Positions 7,029 to 63,438 of a DNA stretch of 64,000 bases are shown here, piece after piece. A program made the translations under genes and the position numbers. Origin of the DNA: Actinomycetospora lutea (GTDB taxonomy: Bacteria > Actinomycetota > Actinomycetes > Mycobacteriales > Pseudonocardiaceae); NCBI RefSeq assembly GCF_028737205.1, contig NZ_JAQZAL010000004.1:1-64000 (forward strand). Reading direction: 5' to 3'. The first letter of the stretch is position 1, and each line of letters opens with the position of its first letter. Under the pieces are notes generated by a model. The model saw nothing but the letters and a program-made list of their open reading frames with translations, searched no databases and was not told the origin of the DNA.

Positions 7029-7042
7029 CCCTTCCCATCAGC

Positions 7043-7084
7043 AGGGGGGTCCAGATTCACCCGTCGCCAGGGGGTCAGGATTCA
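7043..7084 (-). repeat. right terminal inverted repeat of the IS21 element
   Basis: Read on the minus strand this end begins TGAATCCTGACCCCCTGGCG and contains a second TGGACCCCCC core, matching the left end. It lies just upstream of the istA start, where the element's promoter is expected. Confidence 0.75.
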
Positions 7085-7429
7085 GGCGTCGTCAGCAATG
7101 GTGTGTCCTTGTCATTCGGCGACTTTCGACATGATAGTGCAGTACTGGTCACCATCAGGGCGCACCTCGCGCCGGGCGTGGCGGCGGGAAGACGAATAGA
7201 CCGGTGTACGTCCCGGACCCGGGCTCCAAAACACCAAGACGGCCCGCCTGTTCCGGCCGCTCCCGGCGGCCACATGAGCGGTGGGAGCAACTTGTCAACA
7301 ACGGCGGTGATCTTCACACGAGCAGGTCGTGGAGAACAGCGATGTCAACTGGTGCGCGCAGAGGAGGTCCATGAGGTTCGCCGCGCCACCACAGTTGCTG
7401 GTCGAGGCTGTGTGAGGCGGAGCGCGGGA
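7085..7429 (+). other. 345-base spacer, nothing recognisable
   Basis: The stretch between the IS21 right end and the first tRNA-like repeat has short open frames on both strands but none with a convincing start or domain. It is somewhat less GC-rich than the surrounding genes. I see no further mobile-element ends here. Confidence 0.35.
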
Positions 7430-7472
7430 ATCTCTTGATCCGTTGGTTGTGGCTTCGAGTCCCACGGGGCCC
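7430..7472 (+). repeat. tRNA-Lys 3'-end fragment, copy 1 (att-like)
   Basis: These 43 bases run from an anticodon-loop-like CTCTTGA through the variable region, the T arm (TTCGAGTCCCAC) and an acceptor-strand GGGGCCC. They resemble the 3' half of an actinobacterial tRNA-Lys(CUU). No 5' half precedes it, so it is not a tRNA gene. A second copy with one mismatch is at 9988. tRNA 3' ends are classical attachment cores for integrating elements, so this is probably an att scar. Confidence 0.65.
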
Positions 7473-7526
7473 ACAAGCTTCTGACCAGGAGCGTTGCTGG
7501 CGGGCCTGATGATCGAGAACCTCGTA

Positions 7527-8007: not shown

Positions 8008-8457
8008 ATGGCCGACCCGCTCACTTCCCTCCACGGCGTCGCACCCACCTCCCGAGAGGTCCTGACCTTCGCGGGAGTGACCCTCGTGGTCCACGTCGAC
8101 GGGGCCACGACCGGCGGGGCGTTCTCGGTCCTCGAGGAGCTGCCGCCCCTGTCGGACACCCCGCTGCACGTCCACGAGAACGAGGACGAGTACTTCCACG
8201 CCGTCGAGGGCGAACACGTGATCCGGATCGGCGATCGGGAGCACCGGCTCGCCCCGGGCGAGAGCGTGTTCGCCCCGCGAGGGACCCCGCATGCGCAGCG
8301 GCGGGTAACGCCCGGCGAGGGGCGCGTCCTCGTCGTCATCTCCCCGCCCGGTCTCGAGGGCTTCTTCCGTCACCTCGCCGCCGCGGAGGCCCACGGCAGC
8401 CTCGATAGTGAGGCCCGCGAGTCGGCCTCCCGCGAGTACCGGATCACCTGGCTTTAG
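8008..8457 (+). CDS. cupin-domain protein
   Basis: The 149-residue protein is a single-domain cupin. Motif 1 is PLHVHENEDEYFHAVEGEH, with metal-type residues H-x-H-x5-E and a following H. Motif 2 is FAPRGTPHAQRR. The fold binds a divalent metal in a beta barrel and is used by dioxygenases, isomerases and sensors, so the reaction cannot be named. It is intact, in contrast to the divergent TetR remnant. The 67-base gap between their starts probably held a shared promoter. Confidence 0.8.
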   Translation: MADPLTSLHGVAPTSREVLTFAGVTLVVHVDGATTGGAFSVLEELPPLSDTPLHVHENEDEYFHAVEGEHVIRIGDREHRLAPGESVFAPRGTPHAQRRVTPGEGRVLVVISPPGLEGFFRHLAAAEAHGSLDSEARESASREYRITWL

Positions 8458-8624
8458 GTCGGTCCGATCCTGCCCGTCGTCGCCCTGCCGCCGAAAGCCA
8501 ACAGCCAGATCAGGACCTGGAAGAGCCCGGGCGGCTCTGGTCGCCTCAATCCGTGAACAGGCTCTCGGTTACTGGATCGCCGCCCCCGCACCTCCGGCGA
8601 CCTCCGGGGAGAGGCTCTTGAGCC

Positions 8625-9212
8625 ATGATCGAGGAGCTCAGCTCCGTCGACGTCGGCCCCGGCGCTGTGGTGCCACCCGACGCCGAGGCCACGCGAGCGC
8701 CCCAGGTCTCGCCACAACGGGTGCCAACTCGATCGCCCGCAGCGCCCAGCAGCGCGGGTCTTCGCGTGTCAGCGGCGATGACGGCAGCAATGCTCGCACA
8801 GCACAAAGGCGAAGCGCTCGATCCCGATAGCCCGGCGACCAGCGAGGCCGTGGCGGTCGTAGCCGACCAGCTCCATGAGGACTGCGCCTCGTGGAGCTGG
8901 GCGTCACATTCGGCGAAGTATCACGAGGGCGCCGCGCGCCGCATCCTCAGGGCCCTCGTGGATGGATGGCAGCATCAAGATTTGGAATTGGCGACGCGGC
9001 CGGGGCCGCCCCGACAGCTGGGTGAGCTGGGCCAGAACGGACACGCCGCGCCGAACGGGATGAGTCTGCCCCGGCACCATGCCCCTCATCCTTCCGCGTG
9101 CGGAAGGTCAGCACGAGACCCAGAGCTCACAGCCGATAACCGGCTTCTCTGTTGGGGCACCCCTCATGGCACGGAACCGGAGATGGTGGCGATGGTGAGA
9201 AGCACCGAGTGA
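8625..9212 (+). CDS. possible hypothetical protein
   Basis: A 195-residue frame with coding-like composition over its first 120 codons, including EAVAVVADQLHEDCASWSW and YHEGAARRILRALVDGW, which looks like a helical protein. The later part drifts into atypical codon use, so the true 3' end may be frameshifted. No domain is recognised and the ATG lacks a strong ribosome binding site. It lies between the two tRNA-like repeats. Confidence 0.3.
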   Translation: MIEELSSVDVGPGAVVPPDAEATRAPQVSPQRVPTRSPAAPSSAGLRVSAAMTAAMLAQHKGEALDPDSPATSEAVAVVADQLHEDCASWSWASHSAKYHEGAARRILRALVDGWQHQDLELATRPGPPRQLGELGQNGHAAPNGMSLPRHHAPHPSACGRSARDPELTADNRLLCWGTPHGTEPEMVAMVRSTE

Positions 9213-9473
9213 CACGACGAGGACGTCGTTGCAGTGAGAGGTCCTGGTCGCTCGTCTCCAGCTTCGACCGTAGCGATGGCCTCGGGCCGGTTCGGCCTCA
9301 CCCGCGCGACGACGTGGGGGCGGGCGCTGTCGGCACCGACGACGCCCAAGTCGGCTCCCTCTGCAGGGCCAGGAGACGACTGGGATCACCAGAAGATCGT
9401 CAGCCGGATGGGTGGAGGAAGAGCCCTGGAGGGCCCTCGTCGCACCGTCCCGCGAAGAGGGAAGCTAACGGGC

Positions 9474-9806
9474 ATGAGTGAGCCGTCGAACGAGCTGCAG
9501 CTGGATGACTCGGGCGTCGCTGTTGGACTCCCACGCCCCGTCTCGGACGTCGATCAGATCGCGGACGTGCCCTACCGCGCGGTCGCCTTCCGGGACGACG
9601 ATCTCGCCTCAGCCCTCGAGCGCTCCGCGAGCTGGTTGCGGAGCACCGAAGCGTGGCTCGGCGAGCCCCTCGATGTGTCCGGGATTCATCTCGACTACGA
9701 CAACGGGGCCGACTCGCCGTACTTCGAGGTGAAGCTCCTCTGCAACGAGGAGGACCTCGCCGGGGCGCCCCTCCTGCGGCGCCGGCACCAGGCCGGCCAG
9801 TCCTGA
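9474..9806 (+). CDS. hypothetical protein, 110 residues
   Basis: The ATG is preceded by GAGGGAAG at good spacing, and codon third positions are GC-rich throughout. The product is acidic, with VPYRAVAFRDDDLASALER, a tryptophan-rich helix SWLRSTEAWLGEPLD and HLDYDNGADSPYFEVKLLCN. No family is recognised. It is the last gene before the second tRNA-like repeat and may be cargo of a former integrated element. Confidence 0.55.
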   Translation: MSEPSNELQLDDSGVAVGLPRPVSDVDQIADVPYRAVAFRDDDLASALERSASWLRSTEAWLGEPLDVSGIHLDYDNGADSPYFEVKLLCNEEDLAGAPLLRRRHQAGQS

Positions 9807-9987
9807 GCCCTCGGGGTGGGGGGCGCGCCGTCGAGCAACACCGACTCCTCGTCGGCAGGTGCGCGAGAGGCGTCATGGTGCGGGTCGTGGTGCGAAACGA
9901 CGGCTAGCGGTGGTTCATGGTGCGACCCGTGAGACCGGTCGCGATGACATCGTTGCTGGTAGAGGCTCTGGTGGTCGGACTCTGGTG

Positions 9988-48337: not shown

Positions 48338-49207
48338 ATGACGGATGCGCGCCACGGCCGCGGCGTCGGCGGGGGTCGCTCCCTGAAGACCGCTGCCGAG
48401 GCGCTCGCGGCGCTGCGCTTCCTCGGTGCCGCCGAGGAGGGCATCACCGCCGAGGCGCTGGCCGCCGAGCTCGGCAAGAGCACCGCGACGGCCCGGTACC
48501 TGCTCAACACCCTGTGCCAGGAGGGGTTCGCGGTCCGCGACCGCGGGTCCGGCACCTTCCGGCTCCAGGACGCCCCGCCGTGGGGCGACGCCTGGGGTGA
48601 TCCGGAGGCCCCCCACGACCTGACCCGCCACGAGCTGCCCGAGCGGCTCTCGGACGCGGTCACCGACCTGTACTGGCGCACGCGGCAGCGCACCTACCTC
48701 GCGCGCTGGGAGGGCGACGACGACACGACGGTGATCGTCGATGCCCGCGGCCACCAGGGTCTCGCCCGCGTCCCGGACCTCACCGAGCGCATCCCGCTCG
48801 CCTCGGCCCACGCGCTCGCGGTGACGAAGGCGCTCATGGCGTCGTCGGCGCCGCGCGCCACCGCGCTGCACGAGCGCTCCGAGCTCCCGTCGTTCACCGG
48901 CACCACCATCACGAGCGCCCCGGCGATCGAGCTCGAGCTCGCCCGGGTCCGCCGGCGGGGCTACGCGGTGGACCGCGAGGAGTACGCCGAGGGTTTCTGT
49001 TGCATCGGCGCGCCGATCTTCGCCCCCGACGGGCAGGTCGCCGCCAGCATCGCGATCTCCACGCCTGCGCGGCGCTTCGCCACGCACGCGGAGGAGCTGA
49101 CCGGCGCCGTCCGCGACGTCGCCGCGACCGCCACGCGCGGCTGGCGGGAGTCCGAGACCGACCTCCCGCCACCGCTGCCGGCCGACCCCGTACCCCCCGG
49201 GTACTGA
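48338..49207 (+). CDS. IclR-family regulator, left paralogue
   Basis: The 289-residue protein has an N-terminal winged helix ([20 protein letters not shown], then [19 protein letters not shown]-like text) and an effector domain ([60 protein letters not shown]). It aligns with the IclR protein at the other end of the island, sharing ATARY(L/M)(L/I)NTLC and DREE(Y/F)AEGF. The ATG follows GGGAGGGAGGGG. It reads towards prmA, 124 bases away, and probably controls the operon. The effector is unknown. Confidence 0.9.
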
Positions 49208-49331: not shown

Positions 49332-50999
49332 ATGAGCCGTCAGAGTTTGGCGAAGGCTCACCAGAAGATCCAGGAACTTTCCTGGGAGCCGGTGTACCAC
49401 GAGCCGTACATGAAGTACGGGACGGACTACACCTTCCGCAAGGCGGCCAAGAAGGACCCGCTCAAGCAGGTCCTCCGGTCCTACTTCCCCATGCAGGAGG
49501 AGAAGGACAACCGCGTCTACGGAGCATCCGACGGTGCGATCCGCGGGAACATGTTCCGCCAGGTCCAGGAGCGGTGGCTGGAGTGGCAGAAGCTGTTCCT
49601 GTCGATCATCCCGCTGCCGGAGATCTCGGCCGCCCGGTCGATGCCGATGCTGTTCCAGGCGGTTCCGAACCCGGAGCTGCACAACGGCCAGGCGATCCAG
49701 ATGATCGACGAGGTTCGGCACAGCACGATCCAGCAGAACCTCAAGCGGCTGTACATGAACAACTACATCGACCCGGCGGGCTTCAACAACACCCTCCGGG
49801 ACTTCCACTCGGACTACTGCGGCACCATCGGCCGTCAGTTCGCCGAGGGTTTCATCACCGGTGACGCGATCACCGCGGCCAGCATCTACCTGACCATCGT
49901 CGCCGAGACGGCGTTCACGAACACCCTGTTCGTGGCCATGCCGGCCGAGGCGGCGGCCAACGGTGACTACCTGCTGCCCACGGTGTTCCACTCGGTCCAG
50001 TCGGACGAGTCGCGGCACATCTCGAACGGCTACGCCACCCTGCTGATGGCACTGTCGGACGAGGACAACCGCCAGCTGCTCGAGCGCGACCTGCGCTACG
50101 CGTGGTGGAACAACCACCGCGTGGTGGACGCCGCCATCGGCACGTTCATCGAGTACGGCACCAAGGACCGCCGCAAGGACCGCGAGTCCTACGCGGAGAT
50201 GTGGCGCCGCTGGATCTACGACGACTACTACCGGTCCTACCTGCTGCCGCTCGAGAAGTACGGTCTGGTGATCCCCCACGACCTCATCGAGGAGTCGTGG
50301 AACCAGATCTGGAACAAGGGCTACGTCCACGAGGTCGCGCAGTTCTTCGCCACCGGGTGGCTCGCGAACTACTGGCGCATCGACGGCATGACCGACGAGG
50401 ACTTCGAGTGGTTCGAGTACAAGTACCCGGGCTGGTACGAGAAGTACGGCAAGTGGTGGGAGAACTACAACCGCCTGGCGAAGCCGAACGGCCACCACCC
50501 GATCGTCGCCGAGGACGTCGACTACGTGTACCCGCACCGGTGCTGGACCTGCATGGTCCCGTGCCTCGTGCGTGAGGACATGGTCGTCGACCAGGTGGAC
50601 GGCCAGTGGCGGACGTACTGCCACGAGGCCTGCCGCTGGACGGACGCCGAGGCCTTCCGACCCACGTACCAGGGTCGCGAGACCCCGAACATGGGCAAGC
50701 TCGTGGGTCACCGCGAGTGGGAGACGCTCTACCACGGCTGGAACTGGGCCGACGTGGTCCAGGACATGGGCATGGTCCGCGACGACGGCAAGACCATGAC
50801 GGCGCAGCCGCACCTCGATCTCGACCCGAAGAAGATGTGGACGCTCGATCACCTGCGGCGCATGCCGAACGTGGCCAGCCCCAACGTCATCCTCAACGAG
50901 ATGAGCGACTCCGAGCGCGAGGCGTTCGTCGAGGACTACAACAAGCAGGGGCCCGCCGGTCGCCCTGCCGGGATCGGTGGTGAGGCACTGAAGTCCTGA
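49332..50999 (+). CDS. prmA: propane/THF-type soluble diiron monooxygenase, large hydroxylase subunit
   Basis: The 555-residue protein carries the catalytic carboxylate-bridged diiron centre. By spacing against methane monooxygenase the ligands are E97 (PLPEISA), E127 and H130 (MIDEVRHS), E192 (IVAETAFT), E226 and H229 (QSDESRHIS). The sequence is very close to PrmA/MimA/ThmA proteins as I know them ([10 protein letters not shown] start; CWTCMVP near residue 400). It inserts oxygen into propane, acetone, phenol or cyclic ethers depending on the enzyme; sequence alone does not decide the substrate. It works with the small subunit, reductase and coupling protein. A GC hairpin follows the stop. 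Confidence 0.93.
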
Positions 51000-51028
51000 G
51001 CACACGATTCATCGCAGTCGGTGAGTAA

Positions 51029-51060
51029 GGGGGAGGGCCGGGTCCGCCCGGCCCTCCCCC
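51029..51060 (+). terminator. 14-bp hairpin between prmA and prmB
   Basis: Perfect 14-base arms (GGGGGAGGGCCGGG and its complement) enclose a TCCG loop. There is no U tract, so it may act as a partial terminator or as a 3' stabiliser for the prmA message. Either effect would raise the large-subunit yield relative to the downstream reductase. Confidence 0.7.
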
Positions 51061-51132
51061 GTCCTCCCTCCCGGACCGGATCCGCGGTCCGACGTCGTCT
51101 TCCGACACCACCCCCCGAAGGAGCGCCCGGAC

Positions 51133-52185
51133 ATGGGTGACAAGCACCGGGTCCGTTTCGAACCCGTCGGTATCGAGATCGAGGTCGACGAGGACCAGAC
51201 GATCCTGCGTGCCGCCTTCGAGCAGGGCGTGCAGCTGATGCACGGCTGCAAGGAGGGGCAGTGCGCGGCGTGCAAGTCCTTCGTCCTCGAAGGCGACCTG
51301 GACGAGATCGAGCTGGACCGGTACTCGACCTTCGCGCTCCCGGACATGGAACGGGAGGAGGGCCAGACGCTCCTCTGCCGCGCCCACGCCTACGACGACC
51401 TGACGATCGAGCTCCTCAACTACGACGAGGAGATCCTGCGCAGCGGCCTCCCGGTCCGGAAGGGCACCGTCGAGGTGCTCGCCAACGACGAGGTCACCCA
51501 CGACATGCGGCACCTCGTGGTCAAGCAGGTCGCCGGCGAGGACATCAAGTTCTTCCCCGGCCAGTACATGGACTTCACCGTCCCGCACACCGGTGCGGTC
51601 AGGTCGTTCTCCATGGCGAACACCCCGAACCGCGAGGGCGTGTTCGAGTTCGTCATCAAGATCTATCCGGACGGCGCGTTCTCACAGTACCTCGCGAAGG
51701 AGGTGGAGGTCGGCGACCGCATCGAGGTCGAGGCCCCGTTCGGCACCTGCACCCTGCGCGAGAACCGCACGTCCGACATCGTCTTCATCGGCGGCGGTGC
51801 CGGGATGGCGCCCCTGCTCGGCCTCCTGCGCGCCCTCGTCGAGAAGGGCTCGGAGCGCAAGGCGCGGCTCTACTACGGCGCCCGCACGAAAGCCGATCTG
51901 TGCTTCGAGGAGGAACTGCGCGCGTTCGAGGGGAAGATTCCCGGCTTCCGCTACGTCCCCGCGCTCTCCGAGCACGACGGCGACGACTGGGACGGCGCGA
52001 CCGGGCTGATCACCGAGGTGGTCCGGGAGCGCGAGCCGGACCTCGAAGGGATGGATGCCTATGTGTGCGGTCCGCCGCCGATGGTCGACGCGGCGATCGC
52101 CCTCCTGAGCCAGCGCGGGATGAACACGCACAACATCTTCTACGACAAGTTCACCACCACCGGAGAGCCGGAGGACGAGGGCTAA
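51133..52185 (+). CDS. prmB: monooxygenase reductase, 2Fe-2S/FAD/NADH
   Basis: The 350-residue protein has an N-terminal plant-type ferredoxin domain with cysteines 39, 44, 47 and 82 (HGCKEGQCAACKS and LLCRAH). An FAD domain follows (RSFSMANTPNR), then an NAD domain (VFIGGGAGMAPLLGLLRAL, then YVCGPPPMVDAA). It passes electrons from NADH to the diiron hydroxylase. The start follows an AAGGAG at good spacing. It lies 133 bases after prmA, separated by the hairpin, and three bases before prmC. Length and order are as in other prm, mim and thm clusters. Confidence 0.93.
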   Translation: MGDKHRVRFEPVGIEIEVDEDQTILRAAFEQGVQLMHGCKEGQCAACKSFVLEGDLDEIELDRYSTFALPDMEREEGQTLLCRAHAYDDLTIELLNYDEEILRSGLPVRKGTVEVLANDEVTHDMRHLVVKQVAGEDIKFFPGQYMDFTVPHTGAVRSFSMANTPNREGVFEFVIKIYPDGAFSQYLAKEVEVGDRIEVEAPFGTCTLRENRTSDIVFIGGGAGMAPLLGLLRALVEKGSERKARLYYGARTKADLCFEEELRAFEGKIPGFRYVPALSEHDGDDWDGATGLITEVVREREPDLEGMDAYVCGPPPMVDAAIALLSQRGMNTHNIFYDKFTTTGEPEDEG

Positions 52186-52188
52186 CCC

Positions 52189-53379
52189 ATGACCAGCACC
52201 GAAGAACGTCCGGAGCGGAGCGTTCCGAAGCCTGTCTTCACAGACGCCGAGGCCGGCGCCAAGGAGTTCCCCGACTCGGGGCCCTCCGCGCGGCACTACA
52301 ACTACTTCAAGGCGGCGAAGCGCAAGCAGACGCACTACGAGGACGTGACCGTCGAGGTCCAGCCGGACCCTCGGCACTACCTGACCCAGGGCTGGATCTA
52401 CGGCTTCGCCGACGGCTCGCGTGGCTACCCGCTGACCTGGACCAAGCTCAAGGCCTGGGGTGTCGACGACCCCGAGCCCGAGCGGGGCCCCGGTTCCGGC
52501 GGCAAGCCGGTGGAGAACTGGCCGGCCCACGGGTGGCACGAGTTCCGCGATCCCAACGAGGAGTGGGAACTCACGATGTACCGGTACAACGCCAACGTTG
52601 TCCGGCAGATCAACCAGAACGTCGAGAACGCGCGCAATGCGAAGGCGTTCGACCAGTGGAGCCCGAACTGGGTGCGCTTCGTCGAGCGCAACGTCGGCGC
52701 CTGGATGCACATCGAGCACATCCTCGGCCTGTACGTGTTCGCCGCGAACAACCGGTCCGGCCCGACGAACATGCACAACACGGCGATGGCCGTGAACAGC
52801 GAGCACAAGATCCGGTTCGCGCAGGACCTGGCGCTCTACAACCTCACGCTCACCGAGGAGATCGAGGGCTTCGACGGCGCCGCGCACCTCGACGCCTGGA
52901 ACAACGACCCGGTGTGGCAGGGCGCGCGGAAGGTGTGCGAGGCACTGCCGGCGATCCGCGACGACTGGGGCGAGTCCATCTTCGCGACGAACGTGGTGTT
53001 CGAGCCGCTGGTCGGCGAGCTCTTCCGCTCGAACCTCGTCATGCAGGTCGCGGCCCGCAACGGCGACTACGTCACCCCGACCATCGTCGGCGCGGGCGAG
53101 TACGACTTCGACCAGCGGGACCTGCGCTGGACGGTCGCCTGCTTCGCTCCGCTGACCCAGGACCGCGAGTTCGCCGACCACAACAAGGAACTGATGAACG
53201 GCTGGCTGCAGCACTGGGTGCCGCAGTGTCTCGAGGCGGCCCGCACGATGCAGCCGCTCTGGTCGCAGGCCGACGCCAAGCCGCCTCGCTTCGAGGACTC
53301 ACTCGACAAGGCCAAGAACCGCTTCGCCGGGATCCTCGCCGATCTCGGGCTCGAGACCCCGAAGGAGCTGAGCCAGTGA
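52189..53379 (+). CDS. prmC: soluble diiron monooxygenase, small hydroxylase subunit
   Basis: The 396-residue protein is the beta subunit of the hydroxylase. It has the bacterial multicomponent monooxygenase helical fold but lacks a full set of iron ligands. Recognisable parts are HYNYFKAAKRKQTHYEDVTV, HEFRDPNEEWELTMYRYNA, and FATNVVFEPLVGELFRSNL. It pairs with PrmA to form the hydroxylase dimer of heterodimers. Its ATG is three bases after the prmB stop, and its stop overlaps the prmD start as GTGA. Confidence 0.92.
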   Translation: MTSTEERPERSVPKPVFTDAEAGAKEFPDSGPSARHYNYFKAAKRKQTHYEDVTVEVQPDPRHYLTQGWIYGFADGSRGYPLTWTKLKAWGVDDPEPERGPGSGGKPVENWPAHGWHEFRDPNEEWELTMYRYNANVVRQINQNVENARNAKAFDQWSPNWVRFVERNVGAWMHIEHILGLYVFAANNRSGPTNMHNTAMAVNSEHKIRFAQDLALYNLTLTEEIEGFDGAAHLDAWNNDPVWQGARKVCEALPAIRDDWGESIFATNVVFEPLVGELFRSNLVMQVAARNGDYVTPTIVGAGEYDFDQRDLRWTVACFAPLTQDREFADHNKELMNGWLQHWVPQCLEAARTMQPLWSQADAKPPRFEDSLDKAKNRFAGILADLGLETPKELSQ

Positions 53380-53741
53380 CCACGCAGGAGATGAAGTTCG
53401 GCGCGGAGAACGCCACCGCGTCGAACATGTGCGGCTTCACGCTGATGAACAACCAGGTGGGTGTGCTCGTCGCGAACGTCCTGTCGCGGCTGCCCAACGT
53501 CAAGGTCGAGCACCTGCCCTCGATGATCCGCGTCGACGGGGAGGGCAAGTTCGAGACCGTCTACGCCGACATCGACGAGGAGGCCGGCGAGGACGAGAAC
53601 TGGTTCGACGCGGCCGAGTTCGAGGAGAACATGTCGACCCACTACGGGCGCATGGTCCACCTCGACGACCGCACGATCATGTTCGCCAACCCCGAGGACG
53701 CGGCCGAGTACATCGACTTCGACCTCAAGCCCGTCACCTGA
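53376..53741 (+). CDS. prmD: monooxygenase coupling (effector) protein
   Basis: The 121-residue protein is the cofactor-free regulatory component that docks on the hydroxylase and gates oxygen and electron transfer. The family pattern is visible in ASNMCGFTLMNNQVGVLVAN, VKVEHLPSMIRVDGEGKFE and HYGRMVHLDDRTIMFANPED. It starts with GTG, coupled to prmC. It is followed by a strong hairpin before the GroEL gene. Confidence 0.9.
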   Translation: MTTQEMKFGAENATASNMCGFTLMNNQVGVLVANVLSRLPNVKVEHLPSMIRVDGEGKFETVYADIDEEAGEDENWFDAAEFEENMSTHYGRMVHLDDRTIMFANPEDAAEYIDFDLKPVT

Positions 53742-53745
53742 CCGC

Positions 53746-55535
<1,790 letters not shown>

Positions 55536-55565
55536 CAGCGCTGTGACCATCGAGAGGAGCTCGTC

Positions 55566-56594
55566 GTGAAGGCCGTTCGCGTCCACGGTTACCAGCAGGA
55601 CCCCAGCCTCGACGACATCCCGGAGCCGAAGCTGCAGGGCCCGCTCGACGTCATCGTGAAGATCGGTGGCGCGGGGGTCTGCCGGACCGATCTGCACATC
55701 GTCAACGGCGACTGGAAGGACATCCAGAACCCGGACCTGCCCTACGTCATCGGCCACGAGAACGCCGGCTGGGTGCACGAGGTCGGCGACGCCGTGACCA
55801 ACGTCCGCGTCGGGGACACCGTCATCCTGCACCCGCAGCCCTCCTGCGGGCTGTGCCTCGCCTGCCGCGCGGGGCGGGACATGCAGTGCACGGGGGACGC
55901 GTTCTTCCCCGGCCTGTCCAACAACGACGGCGGGATGGCCGAATACCTGCGGACCACCGCCCGGGCCTGCGTGAAGCTCAACCCGGACACCAACCCCGCC
56001 GACGTCGCGGCGCTCGCCGACGCCGGCATCACCGCGTACCACGCGGTGCGCAAGGCCGTGCCGTACCTGTACCCGGGCACGAGCGCGGTCGTCATCGGGG
56101 CCGGCGGCCTGGGCCACATCGGCATCCAGGCCCTCGCCGCCCTGACGGCCACGAAGATCATCGTGGTCGACAAGAACCCGGCCGCGCTCGAACTGGCGAA
56201 GCAGATCGGCGCGGACGAGACCGTCGTGGCCGACGGCAACCACGTCGCGGCGGTGCAGGACCTCACCGGTGGCGGTGCCACCGTCGTCTTCGACTTCGTC
56301 GCCGAGCAGGGCGTCGAGCTCGAGGCGTGGCAGATGACCGGGCCGGCCGGCTACCAGTTCGTGCTCGGATACGGCGGACAGTTCCAGGCCCCGACGCTCG
56401 ACTTCGTCGCCGGCGAGAAGAACGTCATCGGCAACATCGTCGGGACGTACAACGACCTGGCCGAGCTGATGGTCCTCGCCCAGGCGGGCAAGGTCACGCT
56501 GCACACGGTGCAGTACCGGCTCGACCAGGCCCTGGACGCCCTGCACGACCTGGACGCGGGGAAGGTCCGCGGCCGGGCGATCCTCGTCCCGTAG
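55566..56594 (+). CDS. zinc-dependent NAD alcohol dehydrogenase
   Basis: The 342-residue medium-chain dehydrogenase has catalytic zinc ligands C39 (GVCRTDLH) and H64-E65 (IGHENAGW). Structural zinc cysteines are C94, C97, C100 and C108. The nucleotide motif is SAVVIGAGGLGHIGIQALAA. The third catalytic ligand position appears to be aspartate (ALADAGITAYHAV). It probably oxidises the alcohol made by the monooxygenase, for example 2-propanol or 1-propanol. GTG start with AGAGGAGCT upstream. The gap from groEL is 30 bases, so it is co-transcribed. Confidence 0.9.
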   Translation: MKAVRVHGYQQDPSLDDIPEPKLQGPLDVIVKIGGAGVCRTDLHIVNGDWKDIQNPDLPYVIGHENAGWVHEVGDAVTNVRVGDTVILHPQPSCGLCLACRAGRDMQCTGDAFFPGLSNNDGGMAEYLRTTARACVKLNPDTNPADVAALADAGITAYHAVRKAVPYLYPGTSAVVIGAGGLGHIGIQALAALTATKIIVVDKNPAALELAKQIGADETVVADGNHVAAVQDLTGGGATVVFDFVAEQGVELEAWQMTGPAGYQFVLGYGGQFQAPTLDFVAGEKNVIGNIVGTYNDLAELMVLAQAGKVTLHTVQYRLDQALDALHDLDAGKVRGRAILVP

Positions 56595-56623
56595 ACGGCG
56601 GAGTACAGGAAGGACACCACCAC

Positions 56624-57685
56624 ATGTACGAGAAGGACGGCGAGAAGTACTTCATCGTCGATTCCCACATGCACTACTGGGACGCGTCGCCCGAGAACTG
56701 GGTGCAGGGCGCGGAACAGTACGCCAAGGGTTGGATCGAGTGCTTCCACGCCTACCAGGGGCTCGGCCCGGCCGAGACGCACCAGCCGCTCGAGGAGTTC
56801 CAGAAGGTCTCCGAGGAGCAGCTGATGCGCCAGGAGTTCGAGGAGGGCCACGTCGACGTGGCGATCCTCCAGTCGACCTACCTGCGCGAGTGGTACAAGA
56901 ACGGCTTCAACACCAGCGAGCGCAACGGCTACCTCGCCGAGAAGTACCCGGGCAAGTTCATCCTCAACACCCGTTTCGACCCGCGTGACGGTGACGCCGG
57001 CATGCGCGAGTTCGAGGAGAACGTGCGCCGGTACGGGGCCATCGGCGCGAAGCTCTACACCGCGGAGTGGAACGGCGACTCGCGCGGCTTCAAGCTCACC
57101 GACCCGGAGGCGTACCGCTTCCTGCAGCGGGCCGAGGAGCTCGGGGTCAAGAACATCCACGTGCACAAGGGCCCGACGATCTGGCCGCTGGACAAGGACG
57201 CGTTCGACGTCTCCGACGTCGACCACGCCGCGACCGACTTCCAGGGCCTGAACTTCATCGTCGAGCACGTGGGTCTGCCGCGCATCGAGGACTTCTGCTT
57301 CATGGCGACGCAGGAGCCCAACGTGTACGCGGGTCTGTCCGTGGTCATCGGCGGCCTCATGCACGCCCGTCCCAAGTTCTTCGCCAAGGTCATGGGCGAG
57401 CTGCTGTTCTGGGTCGGCGAGGACAAGATGACCTTCGGCTCGGACTACAACATCTGGGAACCGAAGTGGCAGGTCGAGGGCTTCGTCGACTGGACGATGC
57501 CCGACGACGACCAGTTCGCCGACTACCCGCGCCTCGACACCAACGGCAAGAAGAAGATCCTCGGTCTGAACGCGGCGAAGCTCTACGGCATCGAGGTGCC
57601 GGCCGAGTGCCAGATCACCGAGGGGCAGCCGGCGGCGCAGGACGACGCGCAGCTCGTCGAGGACCGGTCGGTGGCCCCGGCATGA
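56624..57685 (+). CDS. amidohydrolase-2 family metal-dependent hydrolase
   Basis: The 353-residue TIM-barrel protein has an intact HxH after the first strand (FIVDSHMHYWDASPENW), a later histidine in NIHVHKGPTIWPLD, another in FIVEHVGLPRIEDF, and the aspartate in MTFGSDYNIWEPKW. These are the ligands expected of the ACMSD-like amidohydrolase-2 family. Genes of this type are a standing member of prm, mim and thm clusters, yet the reaction is not settled. The stop overlaps the DUF59 start as ATGA. A diverged paralogue with altered ligands is at 3419. Confidence 0.88.
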   Translation: MYEKDGEKYFIVDSHMHYWDASPENWVQGAEQYAKGWIECFHAYQGLGPAETHQPLEEFQKVSEEQLMRQEFEEGHVDVAILQSTYLREWYKNGFNTSERNGYLAEKYPGKFILNTRFDPRDGDAGMREFEENVRRYGAIGAKLYTAEWNGDSRGFKLTDPEAYRFLQRAEELGVKNIHVHKGPTIWPLDKDAFDVSDVDHAATDFQGLNFIVEHVGLPRIEDFCFMATQEPNVYAGLSVVIGGLMHARPKFFAKVMGELLFWVGEDKMTFGSDYNIWEPKWQVEGFVDWTMPDDDQFADYPRLDTNGKKKILGLNAAKLYGIEVPAECQITEGQPAAQDDAQLVEDRSVAPA

Positions 57686-58446
57686 TCGCAGGCACGGGTC
57701 CAGCTCGCCTATCGGCGTGCTGTGTGTCTGGCTCCGTGTCCCAGGCCTCCTCCACCCCGCCGACCACGCTGGTCGACGGGGTGTGGGAGGCGCTGCGCAC
57801 CGTGCGCGACCCCGAGCTCGACAACGACGTGGTCAGCCTCGATTTCGTGGCCGACTGCTCGGTCACCGAGGACGGGATCGCGCACGTGCGCCTGCGCCTG
57901 CCCACCTACTTCTGCGCGCCCAACTTCGCGTTCCTCATGGTCGCCGACGCCTGGGACGCCGTGTCGCAGGTGGACGGACTGGCCGACGTGGACGTGGCGC
58001 TCATCGACCACTTCGCCTCCGACGCCATCAACGCCGGGGTCGCGGCGCGGGCCGGGTTCGTGCACTCGATGGCCGGCAGCGAGGTCGGCGAGGCCGTCGA
58101 GGAGCTGCACGAGCTGCGCCGCTCGTTCACCGAGCGGGCCATGATGGCCGGCACCGACCTCGTCGTCCGCCCGCTGATGCGGGCGGGTGCGACGCCCGAG
58201 CAGGTCGCCGGGATGACACTCGGCGACGCGCCGGACAGTGCCGACCTGCGCCGCCTGCGGGCGCGCCGGAGCGAGCTCGGCATCCCCGCCGACGACGACG
58301 CACCGCTCGTGGTCGACCCCGTGGGGCGGACGGTGGGCCTCGAGGCCCTGCCGCTGCACCTGCGCAAGGCGCGCTCGTACCAGGTCGGCGTCGACGCCAA
58401 CACCAGCATCTGCCGCGGTCAGCTCGCGGCCCGCTACGGGCTGTAG
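57682..58446 (+). CDS. DUF59-family protein with long C-terminal extension
   Basis: The 254-residue protein has a DUF59 domain at about residues 30-125: LVDGVWEALRTVRDPELDND, VVSLDFVADCSVTEDG, and RLPTYFCAPNFAFLMVADAW with the conserved cysteine 78. The second half (GFVHSMAGSEVGEAVEELHE, GLEALPLHLRKARSYQVGVD) is not part of the usual domain. DUF59 proteins help install metal or iron-sulfur centres, so this one may mature the diiron hydroxylase or the amidohydrolase. That is inference. It is coupled to the amidohydrolase by ATGA. Confidence 0.8.
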   Translation: MIAGTGPARLSACCVSGSVSQASSTPPTTLVDGVWEALRTVRDPELDNDVVSLDFVADCSVTEDGIAHVRLRLPTYFCAPNFAFLMVADAWDAVSQVDGLADVDVALIDHFASDAINAGVAARAGFVHSMAGSEVGEAVEELHELRRSFTERAMMAGTDLVVRPLMRAGATPEQVAGMTLGDAPDSADLRRLRARRSELGIPADDDAPLVVDPVGRTVGLEALPLHLRKARSYQVGVDANTSICRGQLAARYGL

Positions 58447-58486
58447 CACCGACCGGCCGGCTCCGTCCCGAGAGGAGGCTCCCGCC

Positions 58487-59119
58487 ATGCCGCGTCACCC
58501 GGGCTGCGACCCCGTGCAGCTCGATCCCGGCAGTCACGACGACCCCGGGGCCGGGCGCTGTCTGATGGAGCACGTCTCGGTGCTGGCGGGGGAGCCGTTC
58601 CGGGCGTGGCCCCGGTGCACCCACCCCGCCGTCGCCGCGCTGGCCACCCAGGTCAACGACCGGTGCTCGCCACAAGGGCGGGCGGCGCTGCTCGGGCGGG
58701 CCGAGGCGCTCGCCCGCGCGGCCAGCGACGACCCGGCGCTGACCTGGCGGCTCGTCGGGCTGACCGCCGAGGCGACGCTCGTGATCCGACCGTACGAGCG
58801 GGGCGCGACCCGGCGCCTCGCCCGGGCCCGGCGGTGGCGCCGGCTGTGGGGCACCGCCCTGCCGCGCCCGCTCGCCCGCCGCCTGCCGCGCTGGGCGCTG
58901 GTGAGCTGCGGGCTCGCGGCCCTCGACGAGCTCGTCGCCGCGGTCCACGGCCTGGTCGCCGTGGCCGGGCCGCCCGGCTCGCCGGAACGCGACATCGCGC
59001 TCGTCGCCCTGCTGGACAGCGTGCTCGACCACGTCCTCGACGACGTGCCGCAGGCCGTCCCGCCGGCCGGGCCCACCCGGACCGACACCACCATCGTCAT
59101 GAAGGAGCTCGTCGCATGA
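58487..59119 (+). CDS. uncharacterised operon protein, 210 residues
   Basis: GAGAGGAGG upstream gives a strong start. The product begins MPRHPGCDPVQLDPGSHDDP and has CLMEHVSVLAGEPFRAWPRC, THPAVAALATQVNDRCSPQG. That stretch recalls a short actinobacterial family with the pattern ME-x-x-S-x-L-A-G-E ... CTHP ... A-x-x-V-N-D, of unknown function. The rest is arginine and alanine rich helix. Four cysteines (7, 25, 44 and 59) fall in the first 60 residues. Its stop overlaps the next start as ATGA. Confidence 0.6.
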   Translation: MPRHPGCDPVQLDPGSHDDPGAGRCLMEHVSVLAGEPFRAWPRCTHPAVAALATQVNDRCSPQGRAALLGRAEALARAASDDPALTWRLVGLTAEATLVIRPYERGATRRLARARRWRRLWGTALPRPLARRLPRWALVSCGLAALDELVAAVHGLVAVAGPPGSPERDIALVALLDSVLDHVLDDVPQAVPPAGPTRTDTTIVMKELVA

Positions 59120-59721
59120 GCGCCCCCAGCGACACCCCGCGCACCGTCCGGCGGATCGGATCGCCGGCCGCGGTGGCGCTCGCCGACCTCGCGGCGATCT
59201 TCGACGACCTGCAGACCGTGCTGCTGTGCTGCGAGCGCCTCGTGACGGCGCTCAACATCCCGGAGCCGGACCCGGTGGTCGTCGAGTCGCTCTGGACCAC
59301 GGCGCTGCTGTCGTACTCGCGCTGCTTCGCGCCCGGCGAGCGGGGCATGAACCTCACCGAGGACGACGTCACCGCCCTCGAGCTCGAGGGCGAGGTGCTC
59401 GGCTGGCACAAGATGCTGCGCCAGCTCAAGAAGCACTACGCGGACCCCGCGACCAACCCGCGCGAGACGTTCGACGTCGGCGTGGCCGTCGCCGACGGCG
59501 TCCCGCAGGGCGTGGCGATCACGTCGACGCGCCAGGCGCTGCCGGACACGATCTCGGTGCACCAGACCGGCGCGATCGCCTACCAGCTCAGCCAGCGCGT
59601 CGACCAGCGCATCGCCGAGCACCAGGGCACGGTCCTCGAGGGCGCCCGCGCCCTGAGCCCGACGGAGCTCGAGACCCTCGACGAGGTCGAGCTCACCGAC
59701 ACCCCGGAGGGTGACGAGTGA
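59116..59721 (+). CDS. uncharacterised operon protein, 201 residues
   Basis: The product is helical at first (VALADLAAIFDDLQTVLLCC, ERLVTALNIPEPDPVVVES), with two adjacent cysteines. A middle block follows (LTEDDVTALELEGEVLGWHK), then a strand-rich part (FDVGVAVADGVPQGVAITS), and it ends acidic. I do not recognise the family. It is linked to both neighbours by ATGA and GTGA overlaps. The codon pattern is strong and uniform, so it is a real gene of the monooxygenase transcript. Confidence 0.65.
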   Translation: MSAPSDTPRTVRRIGSPAAVALADLAAIFDDLQTVLLCCERLVTALNIPEPDPVVVESLWTTALLSYSRCFAPGERGMNLTEDDVTALELEGEVLGWHKMLRQLKKHYADPATNPRETFDVGVAVADGVPQGVAITSTRQALPDTISVHQTGAIAYQLSQRVDQRIAEHQGTVLEGARALSPTELETLDEVELTDTPEGDE

Positions 59722-59972
59722 TCGAGAAGTACAACCCGTGGACGGTCGTCAACCTGGTGTTCGAGCACCTCGCCGACCAGGGGCTGCACCCCGTCCTGGG
59801 CGAGAGCGGCGACCCCTCGGACGCGGCCGCCGACCTGCTGCGCTCCCTCGGGATCACGCCCGGTGACCCGTCGTGGGGCGAGGGCCAGGACGCCGAGCGC
59901 GTCCGCGAGGACCTCGCCGCGCTGCGGGCGGCGTTCGAACCGGTCGACACGGCCGACTCGTCCCGGGAGTGA
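59718..59972 (+). CDS. uncharacterised small operon protein, 84 residues
   Basis: The product starts with GTG and reads MIEKYNPWTVVNLVFEHLAD, then QGLHPVLGESGDPSDAAADL and a final acidic helix. It is small, acidic and helical, without a recognised domain. GTGA overlaps on both sides tie it to its neighbours. It could be a small adaptor for the preceding or following protein. Confidence 0.65.
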   Translation: MIEKYNPWTVVNLVFEHLADQGLHPVLGESGDPSDAAADLLRSLGITPGDPSWGEGQDAERVREDLAALRAAFEPVDTADSSRE

Positions 59973-60520
59973 CCGTGGTCGCGATGCGCTTCGCGCGGCT
60001 CGTGGTGCACCGGATGACCCGCGAGCCGCTCGCGCTGCTCGTGGAGGAGAACGCCGACCGGTGCGTGGTGGTGTCGGTGCGCGGGCCCCAGGCCGAGATC
60101 CTCGACCGGGGTCCGCGGGCGGCGACGCCGGACGACGACGACCGCCTCACCCAGGACCTCATCGGCGAGCTCGCGGCCAAGCTCGGGCGGCGCCTCGCGC
60201 GCGGCGAGATCGTCGACCTCGTCGACGACCGCTTCCGGGCCGAGCTGGTGCTCGACGACGGCACGCGCCTGCCCGGGCGCCCGAGCGACGTGCTCGCGGT
60301 GACCGTGCGTGAGGGCCTCGCCCTCGAGGTGGCCGACGCCGTGGTCGACGCCGTGGGCCAGTCGTACAGCGAGCTCGGCGGCGACCGGCAGGAGCCGGCG
60401 CGCGCGGCCGCGGAGCAGGTGGAGGAGATGCGCGCGTTCCTCGAGCAGGCCACCCCGCAGGACTTCGCCCGCCCGCCGGACGCCGGCGGGGGCCGGACCG
60501 GCGGGGACGACCCGGTCTGA
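59969..60520 (+). CDS. DUF151/bifunctional nuclease-like domain protein
   Basis: The 183-residue protein has a DUF151 (BFN) pattern: LTQDLIGELAAKLGRRLARG, EIVDLVDDRFRAELVLDDGT, RLPGRPSDVLAVTVREGLAL, EVADAVVDAVGQSY, and a final EEMRAFLEQATPQDFARP. The equivalent family blocks are SRPSDAIALALR and FREFLD-x-(I/V)-x-P-E-DF. The family is linked to nuclease activity in plants and is mostly uncharacterised in bacteria. Finding it in a monooxygenase operon is unusual. GTG start, coupled to the preceding gene. Confidence 0.65.
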   Translation: MTVVAMRFARLVVHRMTREPLALLVEENADRCVVVSVRGPQAEILDRGPRAATPDDDDRLTQDLIGELAAKLGRRLARGEIVDLVDDRFRAELVLDDGTRLPGRPSDVLAVTVREGLALEVADAVVDAVGQSYSELGGDRQEPARAAAEQVEEMRAFLEQATPQDFARPPDAGGGRTGGDDPV

Positions 60521-60671: not shown

Positions 60672-62534
60672 ATGGACGGACGTGCCCAGAGCGCCCTCGG
60701 TCGTGCGCGCGAGTTCTTCGTCGACCGCGGCTCCGTCAGCGCCTCCGGCATCGTCCGCCCCGAGATCGTCGACTCCTGGGAGCGCTCGCGGAACGCCGGG
60801 GTCGACGCCACGCAGCTCGACCTCCCCTACGAGCCCGACCTCGACTTCGACGGCAGCCTGTCCAACTGCGCGCGCCCGGTGCTCGACGACCTCGCCGAGC
60901 GGCTCTCGGGCATGTCCGTGGCCGTGGTGCTCACCGACGCCGACGGGCGGGTGCTCGAGCGCCGGGTCGGCGAGGGCGAGCTCCAGCGCCGCCTCGACGC
61001 GATCTCGCTCGCGCCCGGGTTCAGCTACGCCGAGGAGTTCGCCGGCACCAACGGCGTGGGCACCGCGCTCGAGGGCGCGATCCCCGCGCTGGTCGTCGGC
61101 GCCGAGCACTTCAGCGAGCGCCTGCAGGCCTTCGCGTGCGCCGGCGCGCCCGTCCGGGGCCCGGACGGCGCGCTCGCCGGCATCCTCGACGTCACGTGCC
61201 TGCGCTCCGAGGCCAACGACCTCATGCGCTTCCTGGCCCAGCAGGCCGCCACCGACATCGAGGACGTGCTGCGCGAGCGCGGCGGCGTCGGCATCCGCCG
61301 GGTGATGGCCGCGTTCCGCGCCACCTGCGCGCGCACCCGCGGGCCGGTCCTCGCCCTCACCGACGACCTCGTGATGGTCAACCGCGCCGCCCGCGGCCTC
61401 TCGACGCTCGACCAGGAGCGGGTCACGGTGCGGGCGCTGGAGCTGGGCGTGGGCGGGCGTCCCCATCAGGACCGCGTGCTGCTCGCCGACGGCCCGGCCC
61501 GCCTGATGATCACTCCGGTGCCGGCCGAGCGGCCGGTCGGCGTCGTCGTGGAGGTCGTCCCCAGCCGCAGCAGTCTGCGGCTCGCGGGCGGCGACGACGC
61601 GAGCCGGACCTCCCCCCGCACCGGCGAGCTGCCCGCCCCACCGTCGGCCTCCGGGTCGTCCTCGGCGTGGTTCCCGCCGTCCCCCTCGTCGGTCGAGCGG
61701 CCGCTGCCCGGGCTCGCCGGCGACTCGCGGCCGTGGCGCACGGTCGCCGGGGCGCTGCGCACGGCCGCCGGCGCGGCCCGCAGCACCGTGGTGCTCGGCG
61801 AGCCGGGCACCGGCAAGGCCGCCGCCGTCCGGGCCGCGCACGGCGAGGTCCGGCCCGCGGCCCGGTGGGTCACGGTCGACGGGGCCGACCCGGAGGCGGC
61901 CGTGACGCTCGCGGGGTACGCGGCGGAGGCGACCACCGCCGGGGTGGGCGCGACCACCATCGTCGTGCGGCACACCGAGGCCCTCGACGAGGCCGGCGTC
62001 GGCGCGCTGAGCGCGCTGCTCGAGAAGGTGCCGCCGTCGTGGTGGGTGGTCGGCCTGATCACCGCGGAACGCGCCCCCGAGGAGGGCGCGCTCGGGGGGA
62101 TGCTCGCCGGGTTCGCGACCTCCGTGCTGGTCGAGCCCCTGCGGCGCCGGCCCGACGACGTCCCGCTGATCGCGGCCGCCCTCCTCGCCCGGCTCGCGCC
62201 GTCGCGTCGTGCCCGCTGCACGCCGGAGACCGCGGCGCTGCTCACCGGCGCGCGCTGGCCCGGCAACGTCACCCAGCTCGCGGGGGTGCTGCGCCGCGCG
62301 CTCGCCGCGCGACCCGCCGGCGACGTCGAGGCGGCCGACCTGCCCGCCGAGTTCGCGGTCAGCGGCACCCGCCGGCGCCTGACCCCGCTCGAGACCGCCG
62401 AGCGCGACCTGATCGTGTCGGCGCTGGTCGAGGCGAACGGCAACCGCTCGCAGGCCGCCAGCGCGCTGGGGATCGGCCGCGCGACGCTCTACCGGCGCCT
62501 GCGGGCCTTCGGCATCACCGACGTCGGGCGCTGA
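60672..62534 (+). CDS. AcoR/MimR-like GAF and Fis-type transcriptional activator
   Basis: The 620-residue protein has an N-terminal region (RGSVSASGIVRPEIVDSWER) and a GAF domain at about 65-200 (EFAGTNGVGTALEGAIPALV, FACAGAPVRGPDGALAGILD). A degenerate AAA+ core follows at about 370-560 with Walker A VLGEPGTGKAAAV but no GAFTGA loop. The end is a Fis helix-turn-helix (LVEANGNRSQAASALGIGRA, then TLYRRLRAF). Actinobacteria lack sigma-54, and the missing GAFTGA fits activation of another polymerase form. The analogous MimR activates mimABCD. The second of two nearby ATGs was chosen because GAGGTGG precedes it. The last 20 bases overlap the convergent IclR gene. Confidence 0.88.
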   Translation: MDGRAQSALGRAREFFVDRGSVSASGIVRPEIVDSWERSRNAGVDATQLDLPYEPDLDFDGSLSNCARPVLDDLAERLSGMSVAVVLTDADGRVLERRVGEGELQRRLDAISLAPGFSYAEEFAGTNGVGTALEGAIPALVVGAEHFSERLQAFACAGAPVRGPDGALAGILDVTCLRSEANDLMRFLAQQAATDIEDVLRERGGVGIRRVMAAFRATCARTRGPVLALTDDLVMVNRAARGLSTLDQERVTVRALELGVGGRPHQDRVLLADGPARLMITPVPAERPVGVVVEVVPSRSSLRLAGGDDASRTSPRTGELPAPPSASGSSSAWFPPSPSSVERPLPGLAGDSRPWRTVAGALRTAAGAARSTVVLGEPGTGKAAAVRAAHGEVRPAARWVTVDGADPEAAVTLAGYAAEATTAGVGATTIVVRHTEALDEAGVGALSALLEKVPPSWWVVGLITAERAPEEGALGGMLAGFATSVLVEPLRRRPDDVPLIAAALLARLAPSRRARCTPETAALLTGARWPGNVTQLAGVLRRALAARPAGDVEAADLPAEFAVSGTRRRLTPLETAERDLIVSALVEANGNRSQAASALGIGRATLYRRLRAFGITDVGR

Positions 62535-63438
62535 ACCCGCTGAGCTCGTCGACCCCGCGGGCCGCCGGCGCGTCGCGCTCGACCGTCTCGTCCGGACGCG
62601 CGGGCGGCATGCCGACCGGGCGGGCGCCGATCTCGCCGGCCCAGTGCGCGCTCGCCCGCGCCGCGACCGCACGGACGGCCTCGACCAGCTCGTCCTCGTC
62701 GAGCGCGAGCCGGCGCGCCGAGCACGACAGGCCCAGGGCGACGGTGGCGGCGCCGGACGGCGAGACGACCGGGGCGGCGATGCTCGCGAAGCCCTCCGCG
62801 AACTCCTCGCGGTCGAGCGCGACACCGCGCCGGCGGACCTCGTCGAGCTCGGCCCGCAGCGCGGGGAGGTCGGTGAGCGTGGCCGGGGTCAGGCGGGTGA
62901 GCGGGTCGCCCTCCTCGTCGACGGCCTCGCGATACTCGGCCGACGTCGCGAGCAGGACCTTGGTCATGGCCAGGGCGTGCGCGTGGTCGGGCGCCACGTG
63001 GGTGCCGAGCCCCGGGTGCTTCGCGAGGCCCTGGTGGCCGCGCGAGTCGGTGACCGTGGCGACCACGGTGCCCGTGCGCCGCACGAGGTAGGAGCGCTGG
63101 CGCGTGCGCCGGTAGAGCTCGGTGGTGGCCTCGGCCAGCACGGCGCCGGGGTCCGGGTCGCCGGGCACCGGGCTCGCGGGGGTGGTCCCCCACTGCCCCC
63201 AGGGCGGCGCGTCGGAGAGCCGGCAGCGACCCGAGGAGGCACGCTCCGCGTAGCCCGCCTCGCACAGAGTGTTGATCATGTAGCGGGCCGTGGCGGCGCT
63301 CTTGCCGAGCTCCTCGGCGAGGTCCGTCGCCGAGAGGCCGTCGGGGTGGTCCCCGAGCAGGCGCAGCGCGCGCAGGACCGTCGCCGCGGTCTTCAGCGAC
63401 CGCGACCCACCGCCCGCGGGCACCACGTCGTCGTCCAC
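62515..63438 (-). CDS. IclR-family regulator, right paralogue
   Basis: The 307-residue protein has a winged helix (SRSLKTAATVLRALRLLGDH, LAEELGKSAATARYMINTLC) and an IclR effector domain (RQRSYLVRRTGTVVATVTDS, RGHQGLAKHPGLGTHVAPDH, DREEFAEGFASIAAPVVSPS). It is clearly paralogous to the left IclR protein at 48338. It starts with GTG and lies 36 bases after a GTCTCA/TGAGAC palindrome, so it may control itself and the activator gene. It is convergent with the activator and overlaps it by 20 bases. Confidence 0.9.
   Translation of the reverse strand: MDDDVVPAGGGSRSLKTAATVLRALRLLGDHPDGLSATDLAEELGKSAATARYMINTLCEAGYAERASSGRCRLSDAPPWGQWGTTPASPVPGDPDPGAVLAEATTELYRRTRQRSYLVRRTGTVVATVTDSRGHQGLAKHPGLGTHVAPDHAHALAMTKVLLATSAEYREAVDEEGDPLTRLTPATLTDLPALRAELDEVRRRGVALDREEFAEGFASIAAPVVSPSGAATVALGLSCSARRLALDEDELVEAVRAVAARASAHWAGEIGARPVGMPPARPDETVERDAPAARGVDELSGFSARRR

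Follow-up and report, generated by a model that had tools for sequence, protein, structure and literature searches.

Group V diiron monooxygenases of the MimABCD/PrmABCD type, which oxidise propane, acetone and pollutants and are encoded together with a MimG-type chaperonin, are found in Mycolicibacterium, Gordonia and Rhodococcus as well as in the Mim cluster of Actinomycetospora chiangmaiensis. The latter cluster shows strong expression both on acetone and on 2-hydroxyisobutyrate; hydroxylation of acetone to acetol was proposed for this organism (PMC7176365). For related enzymes a dedicated chaperonin was reported to be necessary for activity in foreign hosts (PMC11057499). Here, we analysed a window of 64,000 nucleotides (nt) from Actinomycetospora lutea (contig NZ_JAQZAL010000004.1, positions 1–64,000), to which all coordinates of the mim operon refer. 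This operon comprises 12 genes, all on the + strand (49332–60520), namely mimA, mimB, mimC, mimD, groEL, an alcohol dehydrogenase gene (adh), an amidohydrolase gene, a DUF59 gene and four additional genes termed o1 to o4. Table 1 of the A. chiangmaiensis study follows the Mim cluster from MimA to the amidohydrolase and makes no mention of o1–o4 (PMC7176365).

Two subunits with PF02332, a MimD-type coupling protein (NF045941) and a reductase with flavin and 2Fe-2S domains in mimB place the window operon in group V. A tree of 43 MimA rows splits 100/100 into two clades and places the operon in clade I, as a MimABCD system and an acetone/propane-type diiron monooxygenase whose substrates are taken from the congener literature. 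The genes for the hydroxylase, the reductase, the coupling protein and GroEL are shared with the known systems, as are adh and the amidohydrolase and DUF59 genes, whereas clade I adds o3 and often o2 and shows a partly shuffled gene order. The clade II loci (Rhodococcus type) carry mimABCD and groEL and, where the contig allows, mostly also the amidohydrolase, DUF59 and adh genes; three of them (in G003, G012 and G019) consist of mimABCD–groEL only. The window GroEL is 48–52% identical to the clade II GroELs, compared with 65–84% within clade I outside the genus. Since o3 is present in almost every clade I genome examined, even where the genes lie far apart, its product is probably a dedicated partner of the clade I acetone/propane monooxygenase.

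Co-inheritance of o3 with clade I MimA

In an order survey, 298 genomes of the order were searched with an o3 profile (alignment A1) and for MimA (E up to 1e-50), clade I MimA being defined by at least 86% identity, with some copies present as fragments. Thereby o3 was detected in 28 genomes, any MimA in 40 and clade I MimA in 27, and 26 genomes carried both o3 and clade I MimA. A family survey of 150 genomes, which overlaps the order survey (9 o3 genomes in common, 67 different o3 genomes in total), gave o3 in 48, clade I MimA in 48 and both in 47. The few genomes with o3 and without a listed clade I MimA are accounted for as follows: in G053 a fragment of mimA stands next to o3 where the contig ends, G273 has a MimA of 81% identity, which the tree places as a basal branch of clade I, and the contig of G702 breaks off 98 bases beyond o3, in the direction in which mimA would be expected. 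Mere hitch-hiking of o3 was rejected on the basis of both surveys.

The MimA tree divides o3 in the same manner. Among the 24 rows of clade I, 20 have o3 at the locus, 3 have it elsewhere in the genome and 1 is without it, whereas all 19 rows of clade II are without o3 in the locus; in the clade II loci examined no o3 was found beside mimA at E 0.01 or better. Seven family genomes contain only a more distant MimA (77–83%), and none of them has o3. Likewise, no o3 was found in two Rhodococcus plasmid loci (clade II by identity, 77 and 79%), one of which has no match to mimB–D behind mimA, and a search of plasmids for o2 and o3 returned none at E 1e-5. In a class-wide draw of 394 genomes, which was searched for o3 and not for MimA, o3 occurred in 2 genomes, one of them the window genome, and is thus rare in the class at large; in the one o3 genome of this draw from outside the order, o3 lies directly upstream of mimA.

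In the locus L126 of G027, mimA is reduced to its C-terminal end (8050–8620), and the regulator gene and o3 are gone from the place equivalent to that in G046, while the remaining operon genes and o2 are retained. This case was rejected as a correlated loss of o3 and mimA and does not count as independent evidence, because one deletion may have removed the regulator gene, o3 and most of mimA.

The position of o3 is typically at the head of the operon. Among the 28 o3 loci of the order survey, 22 have o3 immediately 5' of mimA in the same orientation and one (G273) has it divergent from mimA; three carry it elsewhere in the mim locus (two Actinomycetospora and G023) and two elsewhere in the genome. 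In the family survey, 29 of 48 lie directly upstream of mimA within 700 nt, the remainder being elsewhere in the locus or genome or on another contig. Unlike this usual place, o3 stands at the operon end in Actinomycetospora. More drastic relocations were observed in two genera: in genus g11, all six genomes with o3 (L116, L118, L228–L231) have it far from mimA or on a different contig, and in genus g223 (G670, G694) o3 and mimA are on different contigs. As o3 is retained unlinked to mimA in these two genera, its product can act in trans, for which this retention is the strongest evidence, and a cis-acting or leader role of o3 was rejected.

In g11, o3 of all six genomes stands in the interval from pafA to pafB, with as much as 4.7 kb separating it from pafA, which would suit a link between the hydroxylase and the Pup-proteasome system. 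In L116 pafA was confirmed by TIGR03686 and PafC by PF19187, and PafB was assigned solely as a WYL/WCX protein in the expected place. The arrangement is confined to a single genus, so it probably reflects one relocation, and the other 33 of the 39 o3-bearing stretches searched are without a close pafA, pafB or pafC match (L110 has one 32% match, to a pafB-type gene); we consequently give next to no credence to such a link.

It might also be supposed that o3 regulates mim expression, for instance as a small partner of the GAF/AAA/Fis regulator, since in many loci o3 separates mimA from the divergent regulator gene; in genus g205 (L234–L237) it lies beyond the regulator gene. The same regulator family, however, accompanies clade II operons without o3; o3 tracks the MimA clade, and in g11 o3 has moved away while the regulator is still beside mimA (L115, L117). 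A regulatory function of this kind is therefore unlikely. In L235 and L236 a tandem pair of mimR-type regulator genes stands between o3 and mimA.

The o3 and o2 proteins and their possible role

The 35 aligned o3 members measure 73–97 amino acids (aa), with a median isoelectric point of 4.75 and 15 invariant positions including W8, F15, P25, G28, P33, G45 and R70; a cysteine occurs in one member of the 35, and none is conserved. The window o3 has no Pfam or NCBIfam family and one sub-threshold match (E 0.13), and a Pfam search with all 35 members gave nothing of note; none of them matches a phenol or methane monooxygenase family of Pfam at E up to 1, a comparison made with Pfam families and not with an MmoD profile directly. 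Sequence searches of the PDB with the o2 and o3 profiles gave matches at chance level only. On the side of the hydroxylase, the 25 MimA columns which separate the clades are scattered along the chain and form no clear patch by eye. No description of o3 or o2 was found in the open literature searched; hypothetical-protein genes in figures could be them (e.g. Fig. 5, PMC9213486).

A profile search for o2 in the 298 order genomes detected it in 26. In 16 of these it lies within the mim locus (G000, G267, G217, G100, G040, G082, G046, G023, G027, G161, G179, G075, G025, G103, G053 and G022), where G022 was counted as linked though its contig piece holds only groEL and the Nramp gene, and in G027 most of mimA is missing. 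The o2 of G153 follows an Nramp fragment at the contig end, and three genomes (G156, G243, G286) contain distant relatives. A 4-nt overlap of o2 and groEL is present in L132 and L133, and in other loci o2 stands behind groEL–Nramp; in G702 o2 and o3 are neighbours in divergent orientation. The sequence-only reading had named homologues lying mainly away from such operons as its refutation; by the counts given, o3 withstands this check and o2 does so in the main, whereas o1 and o4 fail it, as described further below.

The o2 protein has no Pfam or NCBIfam family, and its predicted model is confident (predicted local distance difference test, pLDDT, 92). As HEPN-like proteins are helical bundles and the same is predicted for o2, a HEPN-type nuclease role was considered; the best HEPN structure entry, 7ae6, gave a non-significant match (probability 0.23, E 1.9). 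The distant relatives L099 and L100 keep an R-x5-H motif (RNKNVAH/RDKHVAH), and one of them shows a weak AbiU2 match (E 0.047). In alignment A6 the arginine column holds R in 25 of 27 rows and K in 2, with other R/H spacings in some rows, whereas the aligned histidine is kept only by the two distant relatives. Because the 25 other members lack a histidine at this column, a nuclease role of this type is unlikely. In L120 (G033) the mimA and mimC matches are in pieces (5861–7500 and 8665–9850), and the o2 of G033 is split too, so that decay of these copies or errors in sequencing may be the cause.

Taken together, we are highly confident that o3 belongs functionally to the Mim system of clade I, and o2 likely does so too where it is linked. 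The best explanation, on which our confidence is evenly divided, is that o3 binds the clade I hydroxylase, a contact which we infer, and matures it or tunes its diiron site, with o2 as an optional second factor. The small, acidic and predicted-helical o3 protein would thereby bind MimA or MimAC and hold the hydroxylase for metal loading and for assembly by the MimG-type chaperonin; alternatively, it could tune the diiron site or act as an allosteric effector, as was proposed for MmoD. DmpK, which has a role in the assembly of phenol hydroxylase, offers a further parallel for such a role. The o2 protein, encoded behind groEL or groEL–Nramp in many genomes, would be the second, optional factor and probably acts at the chaperonin/assembly or expression step.

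Several points weigh against this explanation. G076, the exception in both surveys, combines a complete clade I operon with the absence of any detectable o3, and no o3 remnant was found in its gap between the regulator gene and mimA, which indicates that o3 is either not strictly required or replaceable. G671, whose MimA (83%) falls between the clades by identity, is also without o3. The Fisher values for co-occurrence in both surveys ignore the kinship of the genomes. Furthermore, o3 displays no clear set of metal ligands (of its histidines, His17 is retained by 34 members and His24 by 31, out of 35), its predicted model of three helices is of low confidence (pLDDT 67.5), and Foldseek gave no significant fold match for the o3 or the o2 model. 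As to o2, it lies away from mim in six genomes (G004, G033, G188, G247, G271, G282) and, leaving aside the three distant relatives, was not found in 9 of the 27 clade I genomes, some of which are fragmented.

Proteins of comparable setting are known from other diiron monooxygenases. One source on soluble methane monooxygenase (sMMO) suggests MmoD and MmoG to take part in assembly, activity and folding of the hydroxylase and calls their functions unknown (PMC9324122). Like o3, MmoD and DmpK are encoded in the hydroxylase operon, and dmpK is the first gene of the phenol hydroxylase cluster, named dmpKLMNOP (PMC9213486), as o3 usually is; o3 differs in having no Pfam match to those families and an all-helical predicted fold of low confidence. 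MmoE/ORF1 of some sMMO operons is likewise a helical orphan, encoded alongside a GroEL homologue in the operon of a diiron monooxygenase, but is described with two long helices, and it is set beside o3 by description only (PMC9324122).

These cases bear on the possibility that o3 is a structural subunit or an MmoD-like inhibitor or allosteric effector of the finished hydroxylase instead of an assembly factor. Its small size, its operon location and its specificity for one hydroxylase clade would agree with this, and MMOD is described as an inhibitory component which binds the canyon of MMOH (PMC13045389). Since o3 has no sequence or fold match to such proteins, we consider this possibility rather doubtful. 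Returning to the maturation of the hydroxylase or tuning of its diiron site by o3, we propose tentatively, with confidence a shade short of even, that o3 founds a new family of hydroxylase-specific assembly or gating proteins and divides the actinobacterial group V diiron monooxygenases into two biochemical types, the clade I enzyme being o3-dependent (aided by o2 and an Nramp metal importer) and the clade II enzyme not. If this is true, a clade-specific partner adds to the recipe for expression in foreign hosts, the MimA tree predicts which enzymes need o3, and a function is gained for a family undescribed in the libraries searched (Pfam, NCBIfam).

Operon layout and the genus-level genes o1 and o4

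The genes of the window operon and the next gene downstream are listed in the following.

49332..50999, +, mimA, large (alpha) subunit of the hydroxylase, clade I by the MimA tree (PF02332, 196.9 bits)
51133..52185, +, mimB, reductase (PF00111, PF00970 and PF00175, i.e. Fer2, FAD and NAD domains, over cut-off)
52189..53379, +, mimC, small (beta) subunit of the hydroxylase (PF02332 match at 52519–53160)
53376..53741, +, mimD, coupling/effector protein (NF045941 MimD, 175 bits, cut-off 150; PF02406)
53847..55535, +, groEL-like chaperonin, MimG type (TIGR02348 over cut-off)
55566..56594, +, adh, zinc alcohol dehydrogenase (PF08240/PF00107)
56624..57685, +, amidohydrolase-like protein (PF04909)
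57682..58446, +, DUF59/MIP18-like protein, start at 57682 (ATG) or 57736 (GTG) (PF01883)
58487..59119, +, o1, protein of 210 aa without a family, genus-level addition (undetected in 4 of 11 congener loci)
59116..59721, +, o2, 201 aa, helical protein that includes a beta hairpin, accessory of mim, conserved but optional
59718..59972, +, o3, 84 aa, acidic helical protein, probable partner specific to clade I MimA
59969..60520, +, o4, BFN-domain (DUF151) protein, genus-level addition (PF02577, 48.3 bits)
60672..62534, +, regulator with GAF, AAA lid and Fis-type helix-turn-helix (HTH), next gene downstream of o4

The coordinates of the four additional same-strand genes and their 4-nt overlaps, as given in the sequence-only reading, were confirmed: o1/o2 share ATGA at 59116–59119, o2/o3 GTGA at 59718–59721 and o3/o4 GTGA at 59969–59972. 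Depending on the choice of start, an ATGA overlap is also possible at 57682 between the amidohydrolase and DUF59 genes. With a third-position GC of 0.95–0.99 and ratios of nonsynonymous to synonymous substitution (dN/dS) against six congeners of 0.18–0.34 for o1, 0.12–0.35 for o2, 0.08–0.42 for o3 and 0.22–0.35 for o4, all four are real genes under purifying selection. It was likewise correct that one of them resembles DUF151 and the other three belong to no known family, as o4 matches PF02577 clearly over the cut-off of 27, whereas neither Pfam nor NCBIfam yielded a family for o1, o2 or o3. A simple consensus scan for terminators on the + strand between 48900 and 62600 found none, a result of little weight given the high GC content of the genome.

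Comparison of 11 Actinomycetospora loci (L003–L013) located o2, o3 and o4 behind DUF59 in all of them and o1 in 7. This conserved order of o2–o3–o4 within the genus, together with the overlaps, would be in line with one maturation module of all four genes, as had been suggested. Overlaps alone are no proof of a functional module, however, because o1 and o4 have them too, and the block is broken in the Qaidamihabitans locus L014, where o3 lies upstream of mimA and o2 behind the divergent regulator gene and where o1 and o4 were not found. In 40 further stretches (L103–L142), all chosen for mimA, o3 or o2, no homologue of o1 or o4 was detected at E 1e-3.

The families of o1 and o4 are mostly found elsewhere, and both genes were seen with mim in Actinomycetospora only. 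Relatives of o1 occur in 29 of the 298 order genomes, of which 6, including two Actinomycetospora, also carry clade I MimA, so that they hardly track mim; as far as the contigs allow, none of the matches lies in a mim locus except the window's own. BFN proteins were present in 100 of 100 family genomes searched, and o4 is a divergent paralogue, being one of four BFN matches in the window genome; its nearest relatives outside the genus are in g11, and the 15 kb stretches examined there contain no mim gene. Consequently, o1 and o4 are later, genus-level additions in Actinomycetospora, and a single module of o1–o4 is highly improbable. The suggestion of a four-gene maturation, stability or regulatory module is thus supported in part; what is left of it are two conserved accessory proteins, o3 and o2, instead of four.

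Metal transporter, regulators and further loci

An Nramp-type metal transporter gene is present in many mim operons, clade II included, and stands mostly behind groEL (e.g. in L103, L104, L105, L109, L125, L133, L135, L136 and L137). In two Actinomycetospora loci it follows o4 (L012, 11424–12635; L013, 11391–12602). The assignment was confirmed by PF01566 for L012 and L103 and made by similarity for the others. The transporter likely supplies metal for the diiron enzyme, and its genes fit the metal-supply theme.

In the window regulator (60672–62534), of a type which we take to be mimR, GAF, the AAA lid and the Fis-type HTH are present and the central ATPase domain is weakly recognised; elsewhere a regulator of this type is usually divergent from mimA. 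Two related IclR-type regulator genes (48338–49207 and 62515–63438) flank the window operon, one on each side.

In L107 (G046) a second amidohydrolase–DUF59–adh set (2–2564) lies near the mim operon. The plasmid locus L199 of Rhodococcus aetherivorans BW2 shows a mimA match (494 aa) and, immediately behind it, a match to a dehydrogenase, with no mimB–D matches, and this operon is probably decayed. The window mimD is 99% identical to that of L004 and only 60–63% identical to those of L003, L005, L006, L009 and L010, to which mimC and groEL are 87–94% identical, and this discrepancy indicates that mimD alleles have been exchanged within the genus.

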